Positions 12,431-46,249 of a DNA stretch of 64,000 nt are shown piece after piece. The notes under the pieces were generated by a model that was not told the DNA's origin, made no database searches, and saw only the letters and a program-made list of their open reading frames with translations. Source of the stretch: Rhodosporidiobolus odoratus (taxonomy: Eukaryota > Basidiomycota > Microbotryomycetes > Sporidiobolales > Sporidiobolaceae); NCBI GenBank assembly GCA_034387635.1, contig JAOANU010000021.1, forward strand, positions 62,001 through 126,000, given 5' to 3'. Each line of letters opens with the position of its first letter. The stretch's first letter is position 1. The translations under genes and the position numbers were made by a program.

Positions 12431-12952
12431 CGTGAGCGTATCAGAGTGTCGTAAAGGGGAGAACGAGACGACGCACTTCGACGCGACTACTTTGTCAATT
12501 CTCTCTCCTCTTCACTTGCCTCTGACTGCTGCTAGTCAGCTAGTCAGCTAGTCAGCCAACCGTACACTCTACAGTAAGCTAGACTTACCCCTCCATCAGT
12601 TCCGACGCGTCCCATACCCTCAAGGTATCCCCCCCCGAGACTACACCTCCACCCGAACCACACCACGAGATGAACTGCACCAACAGCCACACCAGCTCAC
12701 GCTAGACCAAGCGAGGTCACACACGAGGGGGAGACGACTGGCGCATAGCTATCGTACAGCTTGCAAACCGTCGAGAGGTCTTGATCGACCGCACCGTCTC
12801 ACCCAGGTTGCTGGCAGGACATGATGGCGAGACCAGCGCACAGAAAAGGAGCATCGGTGACTTGGACCGACACAGTGGGATTGACTCGCCTTCCTCCCAT
12901 TCTGCAGCTTTCTCCTGGTTGACTTCCCTTTTCTCGGTGACTGAGGATAACC
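12431..12952. other. Divergent promoter of GST and SPT16
   Basis: 522 bases between the GST start and the SPT16 initiation codon. It contains a short tandem octamer (12532-12555). The last 100 bases would be the SPT16 5' leader, ending at the A of the split ATG. Confidence 0.45.
12532..12555. repeat. Tandem octamer (ctagtcag) x3
   Basis: Three perfect copies of ctagtcag lie end to end in the divergent GST/SPT16 promoter. They could be a simple-repeat slip product or a reiterated factor site. Confidence 0.8.
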
Positions 12953-15900
12953 AGTACGTCCTTGCCTTTCCTGCCTGTCAACCTGACATCAAGCTGATGC
13001 AGTACTCTCTACAGTGGGCGACGTCGTCATCTCTTCCGCCGTCTTCCACCGCCGCGCATCCAAGGTGTTCGACCAGTGGGATGTGCGTTTTCCTCCTTGG
13101 TCGCCGAGCGTTGTCGTCAGCTGCTTATCCGGGACTGAGTGCTTCACAGGCCAAAGAAGCCGACGCTTCGCCCCTCACCGATGTCGACTATCTTCTCGTC
13201 GTTGCGGGAAACTCGGATGAGGAAAACCCGTACAGGAAGGGGAGCGCTTTGCAGGTGCGTTCATGCTCTTTGACTCTTTTCCGTTGTTCCCCTACCAAGA
13301 CCAAAGATAACTGATAGATGAGTTGGACCGCTCCAGACCTACCTTCTTGGGTACGAGTTTCCGTCTACCTTGATGCTGCTCGGCAAGCGCAAAGTCTATT
13401 TTGTCGTTTCCGCCTCGAAAGGTTTGTCGTTTCTCTCAGCATCCCTTGGTTTCCTAGTAGTTTGATGAGTCTCTCCCGTGAGCGCAGCCAAGCTCCTTCA
13501 GCCGATCTCCAAGCCAGAAGGTTCCGCTACGGTAGAGGTTGAGATCCTCACGAGGGGGAAGGACGAGGCGGAGAACAAGAAGCTGTTCGAAAAGATCATT
13601 GACGTGATCGGTGATAGTGTACGTCCTTAGGGTCTCTCCTTCTCTTCTGCTTTCCTGCATTCTTCGTACTGGTGGAGAAGCAGATTACTTACATCCCTAC
13701 CTGCGCAGGGCAAAGTTGGCGCCCTTCCGAAGGACAAGATGGGTGGCAAGTTTGTGACAGAATGGCAGAACGTTCTCGCTGGGTCGGGCAAGGACATCAA
13801 GGAGGTGGATGTTGCGGTCGGGGTTAGCACGCTTTTGGCCGCGAAGGACTCGGAGGAGCTGGTGCGTCGTCCCTTCCTTATAGCGCCCGAGATAGCCTGA
13901 GGCGTGTCGCTCACCTCGTCCCCGTCTGCAGCGCAACATCCGCAACGCGTCAACTATGACCTCGAAGCTCATGTCGCACTTCAGCGACGCCATGAGTCGC
14001 TACATCGACGAAGGCAAGAAGATCACACACGAGCAGCTTGGAGAGGAGATCGAATCGAAACTGGAGGACAGCAAGTTCTGGAAAAAGCTCAAGTTGGGAG
14101 ACGGGGTGCGTTCTGGACCGCTTTTCTGCTCTTGTAACGATGCCGCCACCCACTCTGCGTCCTTTCCTGACGGCGGTAGCTGACCTTTTTTGGATCTAGT
14201 TCGAGACCGGCTACGGCGACTGGTGCTACTCCCCGATCATTCAGTCCGGCGGAAACTACGACCTAAAGACGTCGGCGCAGACGGACGATCAGCGTCTCAA
14301 GGCTGGCGTGATCCTGTGTTCGCTCGGTATCAGGTACAAGAGCTACTGCAGCAACGTTGGCCGTACTTTCCTCATCGACCCGACATCGGTGCGTTCTTGT
14401 CCCGCTTCTTCCGTGCCTGGCGCGACATAAACAATCAACTCGATCTCCTTCTCACAGGCGCAAGAGAAGAACTACCACTTCTTGGTCGAGCTCCAGAAGC
14501 TCGCCCTGTCGACCCTTCGCGACGGCGCAACTGGCAAGGAGGTCTACGACGCCGTCCTTTCCCACATTCAGTCGAACCGAGAGGACCTCCTCCCCTACTT
14601 CGTCAAGACCGCCGGTTTCGGCATGGGTCTCGAGTTCAGGGATGCGGCGTACCCGCTCACCGCGAAGGGGACTAGGAAGATCATGAGTGACATGACCTTT
14701 TCGTTGACGTTGGGCTTCAATGGCATTCCTGGGGAGAAGGGCAAGCCTGCTTATGCGATTAGTTTGATCGATACGGTTCAGGTTGGGAATGAGGGGAGTA
14801 AGGTGCTTAGCGAGGGGATGAAGGGCAAGGATGAGATGATGTTCTACCTCGAGGTGCGTTTCCCCTATCTTCTCTGCACCATTTGATGTACCAAGCTGAA
14901 GAAGCGACGCCGTTCTTCCGGCCTTCCAGGACGAGCAAAAGAAGCCCTCCAAGGCTGCGACCAACGGCAAATCCTCCGAGCCCACCTCCCGCCGCGGTGC
15001 CGCCCCTACCGCCGTCGTGAAATCCAAAACTCGCAACGAAAACCGCGACCTCGACGCCGATGCCCTGAACCGTCGCAAGCAGCACCAGCGTGAGTTGGCG
15101 GAGAGGAGGCAGCAGGATGGGATGGAGAAGTACTCGGAGGAGGGTGGGGCGCAGGGGGGGAGTCGGGAGAAGCAGTGGAGGAGGTTCGAGAGTTATGTCA
15201 AGGAGTCGCAGTTGCCCGAGGCGGTTAGTACGCAGAAGGTGCGTGGTTATCTCTCCTCTTTTCTGCGCCCCTTCGTGCTCGCCTACTGATGCGCTGCATT
15301 CCCGACGACTGCACAGATCGTCGTCGACGCTCGTCGCCTCACCCTCATTCTCCCCATCAACGGCTTCGCGGTGCCTTTCCATGTCAATGCCCTCAAGAGC
15401 TTGATCAAGCAGGAGGAAGGGGATTACACTGTCTTGAGGTTCATGTTCACCACGCCTGGAGCCATCACGGGCAAGAAGGAAGACACGGTTCGTTTCTTGT
15501 ACCGTCTTCTCCTGTTCTGCCTTCCCTCGCTCATGCCCTGCGATCCTCCCTGCCCGACAGCCTTTCGAAGACCCCTCGGCGACCTTTATCCGCGGTATCA
15601 CCTACCGTAGCACCGACTCGTTCCGCTTCACTGAGCTCCACAAAGAGATCAACGATCTCAAGAAGGCGGCAGTCAAGAGGGAGAATGAGAGGAAGGAGTT
15701 GGCGGATGTGGTCGAGCAGGACAAGTTGGTCGAGCTCAGGGGTGCGTCCCATTTCTAACCTCCCGCGAGCGAAATCGTGCAGCCTTGGGCGAGATGTTGA
15801 GCAGTCGCTGATTTGAGCCCTCCGGCGCACAGGCAAGCGCCCTATCAAGCTTACCGAGGTTCAGCTTCGTCCTTCGTTCGACGGCAAGAGGCAATCGGGC

Positions 15901-17283
15901 GACGTCGAGATCCATTCGAACGGTATCCGTTACCAGTCTTCCGTCAAGTCGGACCAGAAACTCGGTACGCTTCTCGACTCCGCCTCTCCTCGTATTGCCG
16001 TTCGCTCATCCGCTGGGTTCTCCCTGGCTTCGCGCAGACATCCTCTTCAGCAACATCAAGCACCTCCTTTTCCAGCCTTGCGACAATGAGCTCATCGTCG
16101 TTCTCCACATCCACCTCAAGAGTCCGATCATGATTGGCAAGAAGAAGGCCAAGGACGTTCAGTTCTTCCGCGAAGTGTCGGATGCTTCCTTCGACGAGAC
16201 TGGCAACAAGAAGCGCAAGCGCAACTACCACGACGAGGACGAGCTTGAGGCTGAACAGGAGGAGAGGAAGAGGCGCGCCGACTTGAACAAGTACTTCAAG
16301 GCCTTCTCGGACAAGATTGCTGAAGCGGTTTGTCTTTTCCTACGTCTCCCAATCTCCCGAATGCAGTCTGACACTGGTTCGTCCTCGCACAGTCTAACGG
16401 GCGGGTCGAAGTCGACATTCCTTTCCGTGAACTCGGATTCCAGGGTGTCCCCTTCCGTTCCAACGTCCTTCTCCAACCGACCACCGAAACCCTCGTCTTC
16501 CTCACCGAACCGCCTTTCCTCGTCCTTACCCTCAGCGAAATCGAAGTCGCCCACCTCGAGCGCGTGCAGTATGGGCTCAAGAACTTCGACTTGGTGTTCG
16601 TCTTCCAAGACTTTACGCGTCCGCCGGTGCATATCAACACGATTCCGTCACCTCAGCTGGACAGCGTCAAGGAATGGTTGGAGTGCGTGGTTCCAGGCTA
16701 AACTTTCGATGTCTGCTCGTGCTGACCTCTCCGATTTCTCCAGCTCGGTCGACATTCCCTTCTCTGAGGGTCCCGTCAACCTTAACTGGCAGGCCATCAT
16801 GAAGACGGTCAACGATGACCCATACGATTTCTTCAAGGAGGGCGGATGGAGCTTCTTGCAGGACAAGGAAGATGTACGTTCCTTCCGACGTTCCCTTCTC
16901 CCTGCCGGTACGCTGACATTCACGCTGCTCTGCTCTTCCTCTCCCTCCTCCACTGGACACAGGAGCGCAACTCGAGCGACGACGACGAAGACGAGTCCGA
17001 GTTTGAAGCCGCATCGAGCGACTTTGACGACTCGGACGGTGGATCTGACAGCGGCTTCTCCGATGCCTCTGCAGACGACTCTGGCTCGGACGCTGGCGAC
17101 TTCTCCGGTTCTTCGGGTGAGGATTGGTCCGACGCTGAGGACAGGTTGGAGAGCAAGGAGAAGGATAAAAAAAAGAGTGGGAAGGGTGGGTACAGTTCGG
17201 ATGCAAGTAGCGGGAGGGGGAAGAAGAGGGGGAAGAGTGGAGGAGGGAAGGTGCCCGTCAAGGTCAAGGGGAAGAAGAAGTGA
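12953..17283 (+). CDS. SPT16: FACT complex subunit SPT16
   Basis: Seventeen coding exons close perfectly and give 1041 residues, the usual SPT16 size. SPT16 with Pob3/SSRP1 forms FACT, which reorganises nucleosomes during transcription and replication in the nucleus. Domains in order: N-terminal peptidase-like lobe ([33 protein letters not shown], then the pita-bread fold with [31 protein letters not shown] and [11 protein letters not shown]), the dimerisation region ([45 protein letters not shown]), the tandem-PH middle domain ([20 protein letters not shown] and [20 protein letters not shown]) and a strongly acidic Ser/Asp C-terminal tail ending in a Lys-rich stretch ([10 protein letters not shown]), which binds histones. 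Exons: A at 12953, 13015-13082, 13150-13254, 13337-13421, 13488-13618, 13709-13861, 13932-14105, 14200-14388, 14458-14853, 14930-15238, 15317-15487, 15561-15741, 15833-15964, 16038-16327, 16393-16682, 16744-16873, 16963-17283. The start is unusual: the only in-frame ATG is made by splicing A to TG. Confidence 0.95.
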
Positions 17284-19059
17284 TGTACATTGTGCTTGTG
17301 TCCCTTCCACTTCATGTAGCATTGTGAAAAGTGCGACGCTTTTACCCTTACTCGACCTTTCTTCCTTATGTGATGCGGCGTCTTCTTCTGGCTGTCGGCT
17401 CTGCACTTCTGCTCGCCGTTGACGACGACTTTGGTTCGTTCTGCTTCCCGTGCACGCACGGCCCTTTGCGCTTTGATGCGCTCATCGTCTCCTCTTTTCC
17501 TCCTCGTCATTTGCTGAATAGCTTTGCTCGTGCCGTGTGCTTCGCGCTCAAATGCTCGTATCTCGATGATGACGATTCCAGTCGGCCGCCACAACTTTGC
17601 CTAGGCTCGCAATCCCGTGCGAGCGGGCACGGCTGAGACCAAGTTTGAGCGAGATTACCACGAGGAGAACGACGCAAGCGAGGGCGGAAACGGTACAAGC
17701 GGGACTCACGAGGAGGAAGCTAACAAGGTTTACCAACGGTCGGCTTACTTTATCTAGAGTCTCGGCGAACATTTGAGGGGAAGAATCCAAGGAGGTGGTC
17801 GAGGTCGCGATTCGCGACGCGGCCTACCAAGGGTGTTTACGTCAAACGGAGCCGTATCTTCGTGTGTCGTACACGATTCAGCCAGATTAGGTTGGCCGCC
17901 CAAGGTTCCGCCGCCTTTGTTCGGCGGCTGTTGTCACGCCTGGCTCTTTTTCCTTTAAGGAAGAAAGATACAAGCTTCGGGATGGATTGTTGTCGCGGCC
18001 GGACGGAGATCTGAGTGACCGGTGCCGTCGCATCGGATGCGGAACGTCGGGGACGAACCTTGCGGCGGTCTTCTCCTGCTGTTCCGCCGCCGGAACGATT
18101 CTTCAAACATGGGGCGAAGAACAACGGGGTTTGGCAGGGCGGGCTCGCCTGGGCTGCTGCCTAGTGACGGTAGAGAACGCTGCCGGACAGAGTGTCTGAA
18201 GCTGATCTGATGAAACAGTACGCGAGGTGATGAAGAAGACGCGTCGAGTCGACGGCGGAGGCAAAAGAGCGGAGGCGTCGTTTATTCTGAGTGCGACGTC
18301 GAGTTGGTACGGTGCGAAGGGAGATCAACGCGATAACAACGCACACTCACCACCTCTTGGCTTCGTATCGCCTGCCTCGCCACCACAGATGTGTCAACGC
18401 GGCATCTTTTCTTCGGCACCGGCAACTTGAAGCACGCGGAACCTGTTTTTGTCTCAGAGAAGGGGAGAGACGTCTCCTGTGAAACAGTTGTCGATGCATC
18501 AGACTCCGACACGCTCCCCCTTGTTGGCGAGATTTCTGCTGCTTTGGCTGGCCGTGAAGCGGCTGGCCAGAAGCAGAGCAAGGAGAGAGAGAAGAAGAAA
18601 AAGAAGTAGAAGATATATCCCAGCTAAAGCAAGCTACAAAAGGTTACGTTAACCTCGAGAGGAAAAACCCGCTGGACCTCTACCGCCTTGCGCGGTGTAC
18701 GAGAGAGGGGGAGGGAGGGACTGACCAAAGACTGACGAATCAGAAGTTCAAGGTCCGGCCGGCCTAAAAGGAGTTTTGGACGGAGATGACTCAACGTTCC
18801 GGACCGTGTTCGGAGACTTGGGGGTCAGCCGTTGAGGTGTCCTCGCGCCTCCGCCCAAAGTTTGCTTGACCTCATCAAGACAAACCCAGATCTGCGGTCA
18901 GCGTGGCATTCAAGAACCTCTCCTGCTCGTATCTTGCTCTCTCCTTGTCATCTCTCCACACGACACCCGCTCCTTCCCCCGAGGCGTTTGTTTCCCGCCC
19001 CCTTTACGACTCTTCACGACTTCACGACCACTCGTTTCCTATCACTGCACTCAACAAAG
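17284..19059. other. Long intergenic stretch with unresolved exon-like segments
   Basis: About 1.8 kb. On the plus strand, fragments between 17780 and 18609 read like exons (EERYKLRDGLLSRPDGDLSD near 17960-18020, then an Asp/Glu/Arg-rich fragment near 18218-18307, and a final frame ending in QKQSKEREKKKKK at 18609). I could not join them in phase, so no gene is called. A minus-strand membrane ORF is listed separately. 18700-19059 is the probable promoter and CT-rich leader of the peptide precursor gene. Confidence 0.35.
17548..17772 (-). CDS. Possible small single-pass membrane protein
   Basis: A 74-codon frame starts at the ATG at 17772 (MFAETLDKVSRPLVNL) and has one strong hydrophobic segment (SALACVVLLVVISLKLGL, about residues 30-47) followed by a basic tail. 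A TAG acceptor-like site lies just upstream in the same frame, so it may instead be the last exon of a longer minus-strand gene. It runs tail-to-tail with SPT16. No family recognised; it could be chance. Confidence 0.25.
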   Translation of the reverse strand: MFAETLDKVSRPLVNLVSFLLVSPACTVSALACVVLLVVISLKLGLSRARSHGIASLGKVVAADWNRHHRDTSI

Positions 19060-20230
19060 ATGAAGTTCACCTCCATCGCCCTTCTCGCCGCCGCCGTCGC
19101 TTCTGTCGCCGCTGCCCCTGCTCCGGTACGTGACGTTACATAGTCAATCAACATGATCTGCACCAACTGACTTACGATAATTTCTTCAGGCATGGGGCCG
19201 TCAAGCTGCCGTCGACGAAACCGACCCGTCCGCTAAGCGTTCCGTGCGTTCCTTCCCTCTCCCTATTGTCACACATGGACTAAACCGCTTCTTCATCACC
19301 AGCTCGACGAGCGTGCCTGGGGCCGTCAAGCCGCTATTTCGGAGGAGGACCCCGCTTTGAAGAAGCGCGCCTGGGGCCGTCAGGCTGCTGTCGGCGAGAC
19401 TGACCCGTCCGCTAAGCGCTCTGTATGTTCCCTCTTCCTCTCTTTCGCCCCGCTCCGCGCTGACTCGTCTCTCGATCAATAGCTCGATGAGCGCGCATGG
19501 GGCCGTCAGCCTGCTGTTGGCGAGACTGACCCGTCTGCCAAGCGCTCTGTACGTTCCTTCCTTTCTCCTTCGTGCTGCCCCGCCTGCAGGCTGACACACA
19601 TCTCTGTTTACAGCTCGATGAGCGCGCTTGGGGTCGCCAGGCTGCCGTCTCAGAGGAGGATCCCGCCTTGAAGAAGCGCGCTTGGGGCCGTCAGGCTGCT
19701 GTCGGCGAGACTGACCCGTCTGCCAAGCGCTCTGTACGTTCCTTCCTTTCTCCTTTTTTTGTTTCTTTGCCCCCACTCTCAGCTGACTCGACCCTTTACA
19801 ACAGCTCGATGAGCGTGCTTGGGGCCGCCAAGCTGCCGTTTCGGAAGAAGACCCGGCCTTGAAGAAGCGCGCTTGGGGCCGTCAGGCTGCCGTTGGAGAG
19901 ACTGATCCGTCCGCTAAGCGCTCTGTACGCTTTTTCCTTTGTCCTCTTTTCTCTTCTAGACTCCGAGCTGATTCGACTTTCGATCAATAGCTCGATGAGC
20001 GTGCTTGGGGCCGCCAAGCTGCCGTTTCGGAGGAGGACCCCGCCTTGAAGAAGCGCGCTTGGGGCCGTCAGGCTGCTGTCGGCGAGACTGACCCGTCCGC
20101 TAAGCGCTCTGTATGTTCCCTCTTCCTCTCTTTCGCCCCGCTCCGCGCTGACTCGTCTCTCGATCAATAGCTCGATGAGCGCGCATGGGGCCGTCAGCCT
20201 GCCGTTGGCGAAACCGACCCGTCCGCCTAA
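19060..20230 (+). CDS. Secreted multi-copy peptide precursor (AWGRQ repeats, Kex2-type sites)
   Basis: Eight exons close in phase (19060-19125, 19190-19243, 19303-19422, 19483-19548, 19614-19733, 19805-19924, 19991-20110, 20171-20230), giving 241 residues. Residues 1-19 (MKFTSIALLAAAVASVAAA) are a textbook signal peptide. The rest is eleven tandem units that all start AWGRQ. Type A (seven copies) is AWGRQ[A/P]AV[G/D]ETDPSA, mostly followed by KR-SLDER; type B (four copies) is AWGRQAA[V/I]SEEDPAL followed by KKR. Internal exons hold one A unit or one B+A pair. KR and KKR are Kex2-type cleavage sites, so the product is probably cut in the Golgi to release two families of about 15-residue peptides; the SLDER spacer could be trimmed like the EA spacers of yeast alpha-factor. 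There is no Cys and no C-terminal CaaX box (the protein ends DPSA), so it is not a farnesylated basidiomycete pheromone. The design matches Kex2-processed repeat proteins (KEPs), yeast alpha-factor and Ustilago repellent precursors, but the core sequence is not one I know. Structural cell-wall peptide or signal peptide are both possible. Confidence 0.9.
19423..19482 (+). repeat. 60-nt intron, copy 1 of an identical pair
   Basis: This intron between exons 3 and 4 of the peptide precursor is base-for-base identical to the intron at 20111-20170 between exons 7 and 8. The exons that follow are also near-identical. It marks a recent duplication or gene conversion of an exon-intron-exon block. Confidence 0.95.
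20111..20170 (+). repeat. 60-nt intron, copy 2 of an identical pair
   Basis: Identical to 19423-19482. The two copies lie 688 nt apart inside the same gene. Confidence 0.95.
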
Positions 20231-21090: not shown

Positions 21091-24000
21091 ATGTCGGACG
21101 GACAAAGGCCCGGGACGGCTTCTCGTCCTCGAACCGCTCGACCTCAAACTGCCTCTCTTGGCCAACCAGCAGTGTGGGAGGAAGACGAGTATGATGACGA
21201 CGATGACGATGTGGGCATGTTCTCCTTCGCCCGTCCCTCCACCGGCACCGACGCAGCAGCAAATCCTTCGACTCCTCCAGCAGGACCCGCATCGCCTCGC
21301 TCTCCCTACCACCATCCCTATTCTCCGTTCATGTTCGGCTTCTCAGCACACGGTCAGACCGGTCATGACATTTCCCCTACCGCCGCCGAGTTTGCGGAAC
21401 CCGTCCGACCGCAGACCGCCACCGCACCTCGAATCCCCCCTTCTTTATTCTCCCCCGCCGCAGCCTTCGCCTCCCAAGTTCAGGCTGGCTCTCACCATGC
21501 ACATCCCACCTCGTTCCAGCCGGATAGTCCAGAGCCTCAACCGGGGCCGCGGAAACGAGGCAGCTGGCAGTCGCCCGACAGCCCCAACCATATCGTAGGC
21601 AATCCTTACGAGCATCAGTTAGGCCGCGAGCCGTCGAGACGGACGAGCGATGGGAGCAGTCGAGATAAGGCCGATGCGCTGGCTTTGGAATGGGCGGATC
21701 GGCAGCGAGGCCTGCCCATAGGTATCGATGCAGACGGGCAGGCGTTCATGCTCAACGAACTCGGTCAGCCGCTTCGTCCTGTCGATACTCGGGAGGAGAA
21801 GATGCTGGCGGCGGCGCAACTGGGACAGTATGTCGACTATACGGAGGGCGGAGGCGCCTCTGTGAGGCAGAGCTACCAGGAGGAGGAAGAAGAAGACTCG
21901 CCTTTTCCGGAAGTTAGGGCGAGCGTCTCCAACATCGACGACCCGGAGATGCCCGTCCTGACCGTGCGAAGCTGGACCATCGGTTTGTTCTTCTCGGTCG
22001 TCATTTCCGCCGTCAACTGCTTCTTCTACCTGCGCTACCCCGCCCCCCTCATCACCCCCATCATCACTCAAGTTCTCTCGTACCCCCTCGGCAAGCTACT
22101 GGCACGCATCCTTCCGTACACTTCATGGAAGACGCCGCGGTGGCTGCAGCAATTAGGCGCCGACGAGACGTTCAGCTTCAACCCCGGCCCGTTCAACATT
22201 AAGGAGCACACCATCCTTGTCATCATGGCGAACGTTTCCACTGCTCCCGCCTTCGGATTGAACTTCTCCCTTGCTTCCGACAAGTACTATGGCGTTGCGC
22301 ATGGAGCAGGTTTCGACATCCTCCTCATCTTGACGACGCAGATGATCGGCTTTGGCGCCGCCGGTCTTCTGCGGCGTTTCCTGGTCTGGCCAGCAACTAT
22401 GGTCTGGCCGACAAACCTCGTTTTCTGTACGCTGCTCAACACGCTGCACGCAGAAGACGAGGACGACGAAAGTGGACCTTCAAGGTTCCGCTTTTTCCTG
22501 TACATCATAGCCGGCGCATTTTGTTGGTATTGGCTACCCGGTACGCTCTCCTCACTTCACTTGTTGTGCGGAAAAGGCTGAGCATCTTTGTTCACCATAG
22601 GCTTCCTCTTCGTCGCGCTCTCCGCCTTTTCCTGGGTTTGCTGGATCGCGCCAAGTAAGGTTTCATTTCATTGCTCAGATTCCGTTCGACAGATACTCAT
22701 ACGGGTTGTCTTACAGATAACGTCGTCGTCAACCAACTCTTTGGTGTCTCGTCGGGCCTCGGCATGGGTCTCTTCACCTTCGACTGGAGCCAAATCGCTT
22801 ACGTCGTCTCGCCGCTCGTCGTGCCGTGGTGGGCCGAAGTGAATGTCTTTGTTGCTTTCATCCTTGCATTCTGGTTGATTGCGCCGCTCATGTACTACAC
22901 TAACGTTCGTCCCCTCCCTTTCCTCCGATCTGTACAGAGATGAGCCACTGAACAATTTCTACCTTCGCAGGTCTGGAACAGCGCTTACCTTCCAATGTCC
23001 ACGTCATCCGTATTCGACCGGTACGGCGCGCCCTACAACACCTCCGCCGTTGTCGATTTGGCGCACATGAAGCTCAACGAAACAGCTTATCAGGAATACT
23101 CGCCTCTGTTCCTCCCCATCACGTACGCCACGGTCTACGGAGTGGCTCTCATGCTCAGCACCTCCGTCATCGTGCACACTGTGCTATATCACGGCAGAGA
23201 TGTCTGGAACCGCATCAAGCGCTTCAACGACAAGGAGGATGTGCACATGAAGCTCATGAAGAACTACCCAGAAGTGCCGGACTGGTGGTATTTTGCGTTC
23301 CTTGTCATCGCGTTCGGCATGAGCATCGTCACCATCGCCGTACGCCGTCTTTTTCTCCTCCTCGAGAGAAGGAAAGCTGACGTGTGATTCTCCTTCTCAG
23401 TGCTGGGACACACAGATGCCAGTATGGTCCGTCATCGTGGCCGTTGTCGTCGGATTGGTCTACATGCTTCCGGGCGGATTTGTCTTCGCAACTGCTAGCT
23501 ATCAAGTGTGTGATATTCTCTCGTTCGCTGCGTTGCGACAGGTCAATCTACTGATGATTTGCGTTATCCTGAAGATCTCCATCAACCTTATCGTCGAATT
23601 GTTCGCGGGCTACATCATTCCCGGTCTTCCTCTCGCCAACATGGTAAGACTGCTGTTTCGGTCTTCTTGCGCGCCCATTCGCCCGCAACTTACGAATGAC
23701 TCTCTCGCAGCTCTTCAAGGTGTATTCGTTACAAACCCTCGGCGTCGGCCTTACCTTTGTCCAGGATCTCAAGCTTGGTCACTACATGAAGATTCCGCCT
23801 CGTGCGACGTTCGCAGGTTCGACCGCATCCGCATGCTTTCTGTGGTCCTGCAACACTGACCTCCATTTGCGGCTACCAGTGCAAGTTATCGCAACGATTA
23901 TCACTTCCGTCGTGCAGGTGGGCGTCAAGCGTTGGCTCGAATCTGCCGTTCCCGATCTCTGTGCGCGCGACCAAAAATCGTTGCTCACCTGCCCATATGC

Positions 24001-24692
24001 CGAGGTGTACTATTCTTCCTCGATCGTCTGGTACGGATAACCTCGCCCCGCTCGCTCCGAACTTTTTCTACTTGCTCATACTTCCTCTTCCCGCAGGGGC
24101 TTGATCGGCCCCGCTCGTCAATTCAGTGTCGGTCAAGTATACAATCCCATCCTCTACTGGCTACTCGCCGGGGCCGTCCTCCCCGTCGTGACGTGGTCTC
24201 TGGCCAATCGGTACCCGAACAGCTGGGTTCGCTACATGAACGTGCCCGTCGCGCTCTCGGGAATCATGTTCATGCCGCCGGCCAGCGGAATCAACTACTC
24301 CTCGTGGTTCTTCGTCGGCTTCGTCTTCCGTGCGTCGCATTCTGAGCTATCCTGTACATGAGCAGCGTCTGATGCGTTCTTCCTGCAGAGTTCCTCATGC
24401 GGCGGCGCAACTTCCGCTGGTGGTCCAAGTACAACTTCGTCCTTTCCGCCGGCCTTGACGCCGGGACCATCTTAAGCGGCATCATCATCTTCCTCTGCGT
24501 CCAGCTGCCAAAACACGGGACTATCAGTGCGCTCTGCCTCGACTGCTTCTATTTTCTCTCGCAAGCTAATCGCTCTCTCTTTACCCAGGCGTCGATTGGT
24601 GGGGCAACAAGGTTTTCACGAAGACGTTGGATTGGGCTGGTGCATCGTACAAGACGCCCCCGGAGGAGGGGTTTGGGCCTGCGACATGGTGA
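21091..24692 (+). CDS. Oligopeptide transporter, OPT family
   Basis: Eleven exons in phase (21091-22540, 22601-22654, 22717-22904, 22971-23339, 23401-23505, 23542-23643, 23711-23816, 23880-24030, 24097-24329, 24389-24526, 24589-24692) give 999 residues. The first 290 residues are disordered with an acidic run (EEDEYDDDDDDVG). The membrane part begins at VLTVRSWTIGLFFSVVISAV and shows the OPT signatures NPGPFNIKEH and KIPPR (in GHYMKIPPRATF), with many hydrophobic helices (FLVIAFGMSIVTIA, LYWLLAGAVLPVVTWSLA). It ends with the typical WWGNKVFTKTLDW...GPATW. OPT proteins of this type import tetra- and pentapeptides or glutathione with protons at the plasma membrane. The long N-terminal extension is larger than in yeast OPT1/OPT2. 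It lies 860 bp downstream of the repeat peptide precursor in the same orientation. Confidence 0.95.

Positions 24693-46214: not shown

Positions 46215-46249
<35 letters not shown>
46215..46249. repeat. Poly-G homopolymer, 35 nt
   Basis: Thirty-five uninterrupted G on the plus strand, 148 bp after the ubiquitin-like pseudogene. A tract like this can form G-quadruplexes; its exact length is likely to be unreliable. Confidence 0.85.

Follow-up and report, generated by a model that had tools for sequence, protein, structure and literature searches.

Does a basidiomycete red yeast encode a secreted precursor of many short peptides, cut by Kex2, and if so, what might the peptides be for? The question is raised by a locus of Rhodosporidiobolus odoratus that lies within the window, our name for the whole stretch of 64,000 nucleotides that was analysed (C21:62001-126000 of a 24.8-Mb assembly). 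Elsewhere the window holds a run of 35 G (46215-46249). We consider it highly probable that the gene has the anatomy of a KEX2-processed repeat protein (KEP), and its predicted product makes a secreted Kex2-type multi-copy peptide precursor in a basidiomycete red yeast a well-supported reading. The fuller statement, that it is a KEP and that its peptides serve in signalling, is one towards which we lean slightly.

The open frame of the gene appears only once seven GT-AG introns, the splicing of which is inferred from sequence, have been removed. Its ends lie exactly where the original prediction had placed them, and its parts are as follows, in window coordinates.

19060..20230, + strand: candidate KEP gene, whole; 8 exons, 241 aa, with the ATG at 19060 and the stop codon ending at 20230
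19060..19125, + strand: exon 1, signal-peptide-like MKFTSIALLAAAVASVAAAPAP, by inspection
19190..19243, + strand: exon 2, AWGRQAAVDETDPSA-KR-S, unit 1
19303..19422, + strand: exon 3, LDER-AWGRQAAISEEDPAL-KKR-AWGRQAAVGETDPSA-KR-S, units 2 and 3
19483..19548, + strand: exon 4, LDER-AWGRQPAVGETDPSA-KR-S, unit 4
19614..19733, + strand: exon 5, double module, units 5 and 6
19805..19924, + strand: exon 6, double module, units 7 and 8
19991..20110, + strand: exon 7, double module, units 9 and 10
20171..20230, + strand: exon 8, LDER-AWGRQPAVGETDPSA-stop, unit 11

Exons 1 to 8 measure 66, 54, 120, 66, 120, 120, 120 and 60 nt. Since every one of these lengths is divisible by three, the introns are without exception phase 0, and skipping of any internal exon would leave the frame intact. 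The introns are 59-71 nt long, start with GTACGT, GTGCGT, GTATGT or GTACGC, end in CAG or TAG and, in all seven cases, carry a branch-like CTGAC, CTGAT or CTAAA that starts 22-23 nt before the intron end. Introns 3, 6 and 7 (19423-19482, 19925-19990 and 20111-20170) are themselves divisible by three in length and end, at the splice acceptor, in an in-frame TAG; retention of any of them would terminate the protein right there. In a genome search that scored only the best candidates, the precursor was found at one locus of the assembly, with all seven exon matches at E <= 10 falling at 19060-20230.

After its start (MKFTSIALLAAAVASVAAAPAP, signal-peptide-like as judged by eye), the precursor consists of eleven AWGRQ units, seven of the ETDPSA type and four of the EEDPAL type, spaced by ten dibasic sites (6 KR and 4 KKR). 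The unit counts are those given in the original prediction, which was also right that the protein has no Cys and no CaaX end; it terminates in DPSA, and Tyr is likewise missing. The described design of a signal peptide followed by Kex2-cut units holds for the dibasic architecture, with the signal region assigned by inspection, but it had overlooked a KR-SLDER segment, with a single Arg, in front of 6 of the 11 units (2, 4, 5, 7, 9 and 11). Units 3, 6, 8 and 10 directly follow KKR, and unit 1 directly follows the signal region. Variation within the types is small (DETDPSA once, ISEEDPAL once and QPAVGETDPSA twice).

How would the peptides be released? The precursor would enter the secretory pathway, Kex2 would cut after KR or KKR, and a Kex1-type carboxypeptidase would then remove the basic residues. 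With dibasic cutting alone, each precursor is predicted to release linear acidic peptides, five of 15 residues (AWGRQAAV[G/D]ETDPSA) and six of 20 (SLDERAWGRQ...), namely four copies of AWGRQAAVGETDPSA, one of AWGRQAAVDETDPSA, three of SLDERAWGRQAAVSEEDPAL, one of SLDERAWGRQAAISEEDPAL and two of SLDERAWGRQPAVGETDPSA, for which the computed [M+H]+ values are 1515.72, 1573.72, 2142.02, 2200.06 and 2214.08. Were there also a cut behind the single Arg of SLDER, all eleven peptides would begin at AWGRQ, as eleven 15-mers, with further computed values of 1541.73, 1599.78 and 1613.79. The 15-residue SEEDPAL peptide first put forward as a mass target may therefore really be a 20-mer: AWGRQAAVSEEDPAL requires this monobasic cut, and otherwise SLDER is retained and the product is SLDERAWGRQAAVSEEDPAL. 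The predicted peptides are short and hydrophilic, with a GRAVY of -0.47 to -1.02, and their net charge of -1 to -3 makes them acidic. As for the enzymes, one kexin gene on contig C3 combines a P_proprotein match with DDG, HGTRCAG and GTSAAAP, which we take to be the kexin Asp, His and Ser motifs. The S10 carboxypeptidase family is matched in the genome at the family level, providing a candidate Kex1, and there is also a match of the DPPIV type, to which Ste13 belongs. When Coprinopsis KEPs were expressed in Pichia, products cut after a single Arg were reported (PMC9769878).

The AWGRQ array, which is visible on the minus strand too as the complement of the plus-strand array, is not due to chance. 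In a scan of 1.2-kb stretches, restricted to words of at least 4 different residues, the top count for any 5-aa word was 10 at the locus and 4 in the remaining window, and among 200 dinucleotide shuffles of the locus the highest 5-aa word count was 3, reached once. Codon usage is also distinctive. Codons of a disfavoured set occur at 13 of 241 positions in the precursor, at 236 of 1011 in the first model of a neighbouring OPT transporter gene (this model reads through one 69-nt intron; the corrected protein has 988 aa) and at 10 of 117 in a GAPDH exon, while CGA, CGG or AGR account for 0 of 27, 25 of 43 and 0 of 5 Arg codons, respectively. The GAPDH exon is the sole independent yardstick in this comparison, because the disfavoured set was picked after viewing the codon tables of the precursor and the OPT gene, and the codon counts of the precursor come from repeats and hence are not independent. 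The strong bias would suit a well-expressed KEP gene.

KEPs have already been described in basidiomycetes (PMC6339444; PMC7329392; PMC9769878), where agaricomycete KEP-derived linear peptides have been detected by mass spectrometry (PMC9769878). The R. odoratus precursor shares with known KEPs a signal-peptide-like start, near-identical short units, KR/KKR spacers and the expectation of linear peptides. It differs from them in carrying its modules on separate phase-0 exons with related introns, in the SLDER single-Arg extension on 6 of its 11 units, and in that a sequence relative was not found. The release of two peptide species from one precursor, which had been called unusual, is indeed uncommon but has precedent: one KEP survey reports two motif types in 77 of 1193 KEPs and three in 2 (PMC6339444). 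In the passages of the KEP literature that we consulted, short of a full review, we met no account of repeat modules carried by separate exons. A text search of the literature found no mention of AWGRQ, and a search on red-yeast Kex2 repeat precursors found no matching paper. Papers on repeat precursors divided among exons and introns did not fit, judged by title and the opening of the abstract, and a search that combined Kex2 with oligopeptide transporters led to a single paper, on Trichoderma.

Searches for homologues were similarly empty. The precursor (241 aa) had no match at E <= 10 in the protein collection (2493 candidates, lengths about 133-421 aa), and neither did an 80-aa piece of it (1 candidate, about 44-140 aa). 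Yet in the same collection the best 120 of 1037 matches of the OPT search cover seven species of Rhodosporidiobolus, with R. odoratus JCM 11641 among them. The precursor gene may lack annotation there, fall beyond the length limits, have diverged too far, or be missing. Pfam gave two matches, to Pilosulin (32.6 bits against a cut-off of 25, E 9e-08) and to Humanin (under its cut-off, E 1.7e-04). We rejected both; they look like sums of weak repeat matches, since no single stretch passes alone.

If the gene is a KEP, what might its peptides do? Their most likely role would be that of a diffusible non-mating signal, acting between cells or towards the biotic surroundings. KEPs are widespread and their functions are largely unknown (PMC9769878), and a signalling role is not a given, because six Coprinopsis KEP knockouts had no apparent phenotype (PMC9769878). 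One alternative, possible though on balance unlikely, is that the products act on the cell surface or wall like those of Ustilago Rep1, or are directed against or towards other organisms. The precursor logic is shared with Ustilago maydis Rep1, which is also a basidiomycete Kex2-cut precursor, but the Rep1 peptides have 37 aa (PMC6339444), whereas the KEP units are hydrophilic and only 15-20 aa long. The codon bias would fit an abundant product of this kind, and Vogt et al. favour roles in biotic interactions (PMC9769878).

A further option, which we regard as rather improbable, is that the peptides are self-imported signals: secreted, processed, taken up by an adjacent transporter, and acting inside the cell as Qsp1 does via Opt1. 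The transporter in question is the following.

21091..24692, + strand: OPT-family oligopeptide transporter; 11 exons, 988 aa; a possible partner by adjacency only

It begins 860 bp past the KEP stop on the same strand. Of its 988 residues, 974 are identical to a protein of R. odoratus JCM 11641, a species in Sporidiobolales; the protein search used residues 1-560 of the first model, before the read-through intron, as its query. This identity places the genome with R. odoratus or a close relative. An exon of phenylalanine ammonia-lyase, used as a second taxon marker, had PAL chain 1y2m of Rhodotorula toruloides as its best match, which tells less than the OPT comparison. About 270 residues of the transporter lie ahead of the conserved part. 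On the other side, upstream of the KEP gene, is SPT16 (a PH_SPT16 match in 15812-17422 and, more weakly and short of the cut-off, one to the N-lobe in 12706-13314).

The genome has at least four OPT loci, on contigs C21, C8, C25 and C31, and the C21 pieces score highest, with the qualification that exon lengths differ. TIGR00727 is a model of small oligopeptide transporters. Among the seven OPT pieces compared with NCBIfam, the three from C21 favour it over the superfamily model, which speaks for import of the peptides, but so do the single pieces from C25 and C31, so that the leaning is not special to the neighbour of the KEP gene; the two C8 pieces favour the superfamily. None of the seven reaches the whole-protein cut-off of TIGR00727; for the superfamily model, the first C21 piece scores above the cut-off. 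In support of import, the genome also holds two WOPR-type (Gti1_Pac2) matches. Against it, OPT genes are of a common kind, with nutrients or glutathione among their possible cargoes (one R. toruloides relative bears the name glutathione transporter 1), and the adjacency was noted after the fact in one genome; we treat it as a lead and not as evidence of partnership.

The Qsp1 precursor is not known to be a repeat protein. What the two systems have in common is a short secreted peptide (predicted here), a basidiomycete yeast and an OPT transporter (merely adjacent here). In Cryptococcus, import of Qsp1 through Opt1 is known, and the peptide is inferred to act inside the cell (PMC7537855). However, Qsp1 is a peptide of only 11 residues, and its maturation by Pqp1 takes place outside the cell (PMC7537855); the KEP peptides, at 15-20 residues, are longer.

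Could the gene instead encode a mating pheromone of the alpha-factor type? The original prediction described it as alpha-factor-like, and as regards architecture the likeness stands: the signal-like start, the repeats and the KR sites are those of ascomycete alpha-factor precursors. As regards function the label is not supported, and we consider such a pheromone very improbable. After the ten KR sites stand SL (six times) and AW (four times) and never the Ste13 dipeptide XA or XP that would be expected of an alpha-factor, APAP occurring solely after the signal region. No PF02116 match to a STE2-type receptor was found in the genome, weak evidence given that no control genome gave a match either. 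The genome also carries pheromone genes of the CaaX type known from red yeasts. STE3 matches lie at C17:385349-386339, and within about 5 kb of them are two CaaX-type precursor genes (C17:380888-381133 and 381840-382085, both on the minus strand), identical in DNA over 246 bases, each encoding 81 aa with five YPAVG[Y/C]TYNTC repeats and a CaaX-like end. These twin genes are likely the mating-pheromone precursors of the strain. In a scan of 80 kb of C17, only the CaaX pheromone repeats (YPAVG) and the word TVQVL stood out, the latter being antisense of those repeats in 10 of 10 places. A GAPDH-like gene lies about 22 kb from STE3 (C17:362567-362917, minus strand).

In this the twin genes resemble the arrangement in Rhodotorula graminis WP1, where two precursor copies, likewise identical, have been reported close to STE3.A2 (PMC3236058). 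Like the rhodotorucine-type precursors of red yeasts, the KEP precursor holds tandem peptide copies within one protein, but it has Kex2 spacing where they have CaaX-type ends. The KEP gene also lies apart from STE3, on C21 and not on C17, although the two contigs could be parts of one chromosome. As far as seen, then, the KEP is not a mating pheromone.

Is the array under selection at all, or could it be a decaying or non-functional tandem repeat? Two observations would suit decay: the failure of both protein searches to find a homologue, and an identical 143-bp block of exon and intron sequence that is present at the locus twice and points to a module duplicated or converted in recent times.

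19372..19514, + strand: 143-bp block, copy 1; part of exon 3, intron 3 and the start of exon 4; identical to copy 2
20060..20202, + strand: 143-bp block, copy 2; part of exon 7, intron 7 and the start of exon 8

Because introns 3 and 7 are identical inside this block, exon and intron were copied as one piece in at least part of the growth of the array. Similarity among introns 3-7 is 60-100%; that of introns 1 and 2 to the others is 51-62%, a level difficult to distinguish from background in such short gapped alignments. Exon-module copy number may vary between strains. Turnover of this kind is recent, but decay is hardly credible, as frame and splice signals are intact throughout and changes inside each unit type are mostly synonymous. 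In pairwise counts over related units, which carry no formal significance, the seven ETDPSA units have pS 0.394 and pN 0.024 (pN/pS 0.06) and the four EEDPAL units pS 0.595 and pN 0.015 (pN/pS 0.02); all eleven together give pS 0.548 and pN 0.140. The codons of KKR are the same in 4 of 4 sites. The similarity of the units could come in part from conversion between them, though pS of 0.4-0.6 shows silent-site divergence. The peptides thus look selected: with silent sites diverged from unit to unit, selection would seem to preserve the sequence of the peptide as such.

Least probable of all is a precursor of an ustiloxin-like cyclic RiPP (dikaritin), which would share the signal-like start and Kex2 repeats, but the precursor is without Tyr and a genome search, run without a positive control genome, found no match to UstYa (DUF3328, PF11807).

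The preferred reading, therefore, remains a KEP whose peptides would serve as a diffusible non-mating signal. A bolder version is a peptide-and-importer gene pair, in which the 15- and 20-residue KEP products would return into the cell through the adjacent OPT and serve as a non-mating signal of density or self that evolved independently of Qsp1, at a dose that could be tuned by gain, loss or in-frame skipping of exon modules; we hold it to be more doubtful than self-import as such. For the study of KEPs, the R. odoratus gene would offer a single locus, exact expected masses, and a neighbour pointing to signal import.
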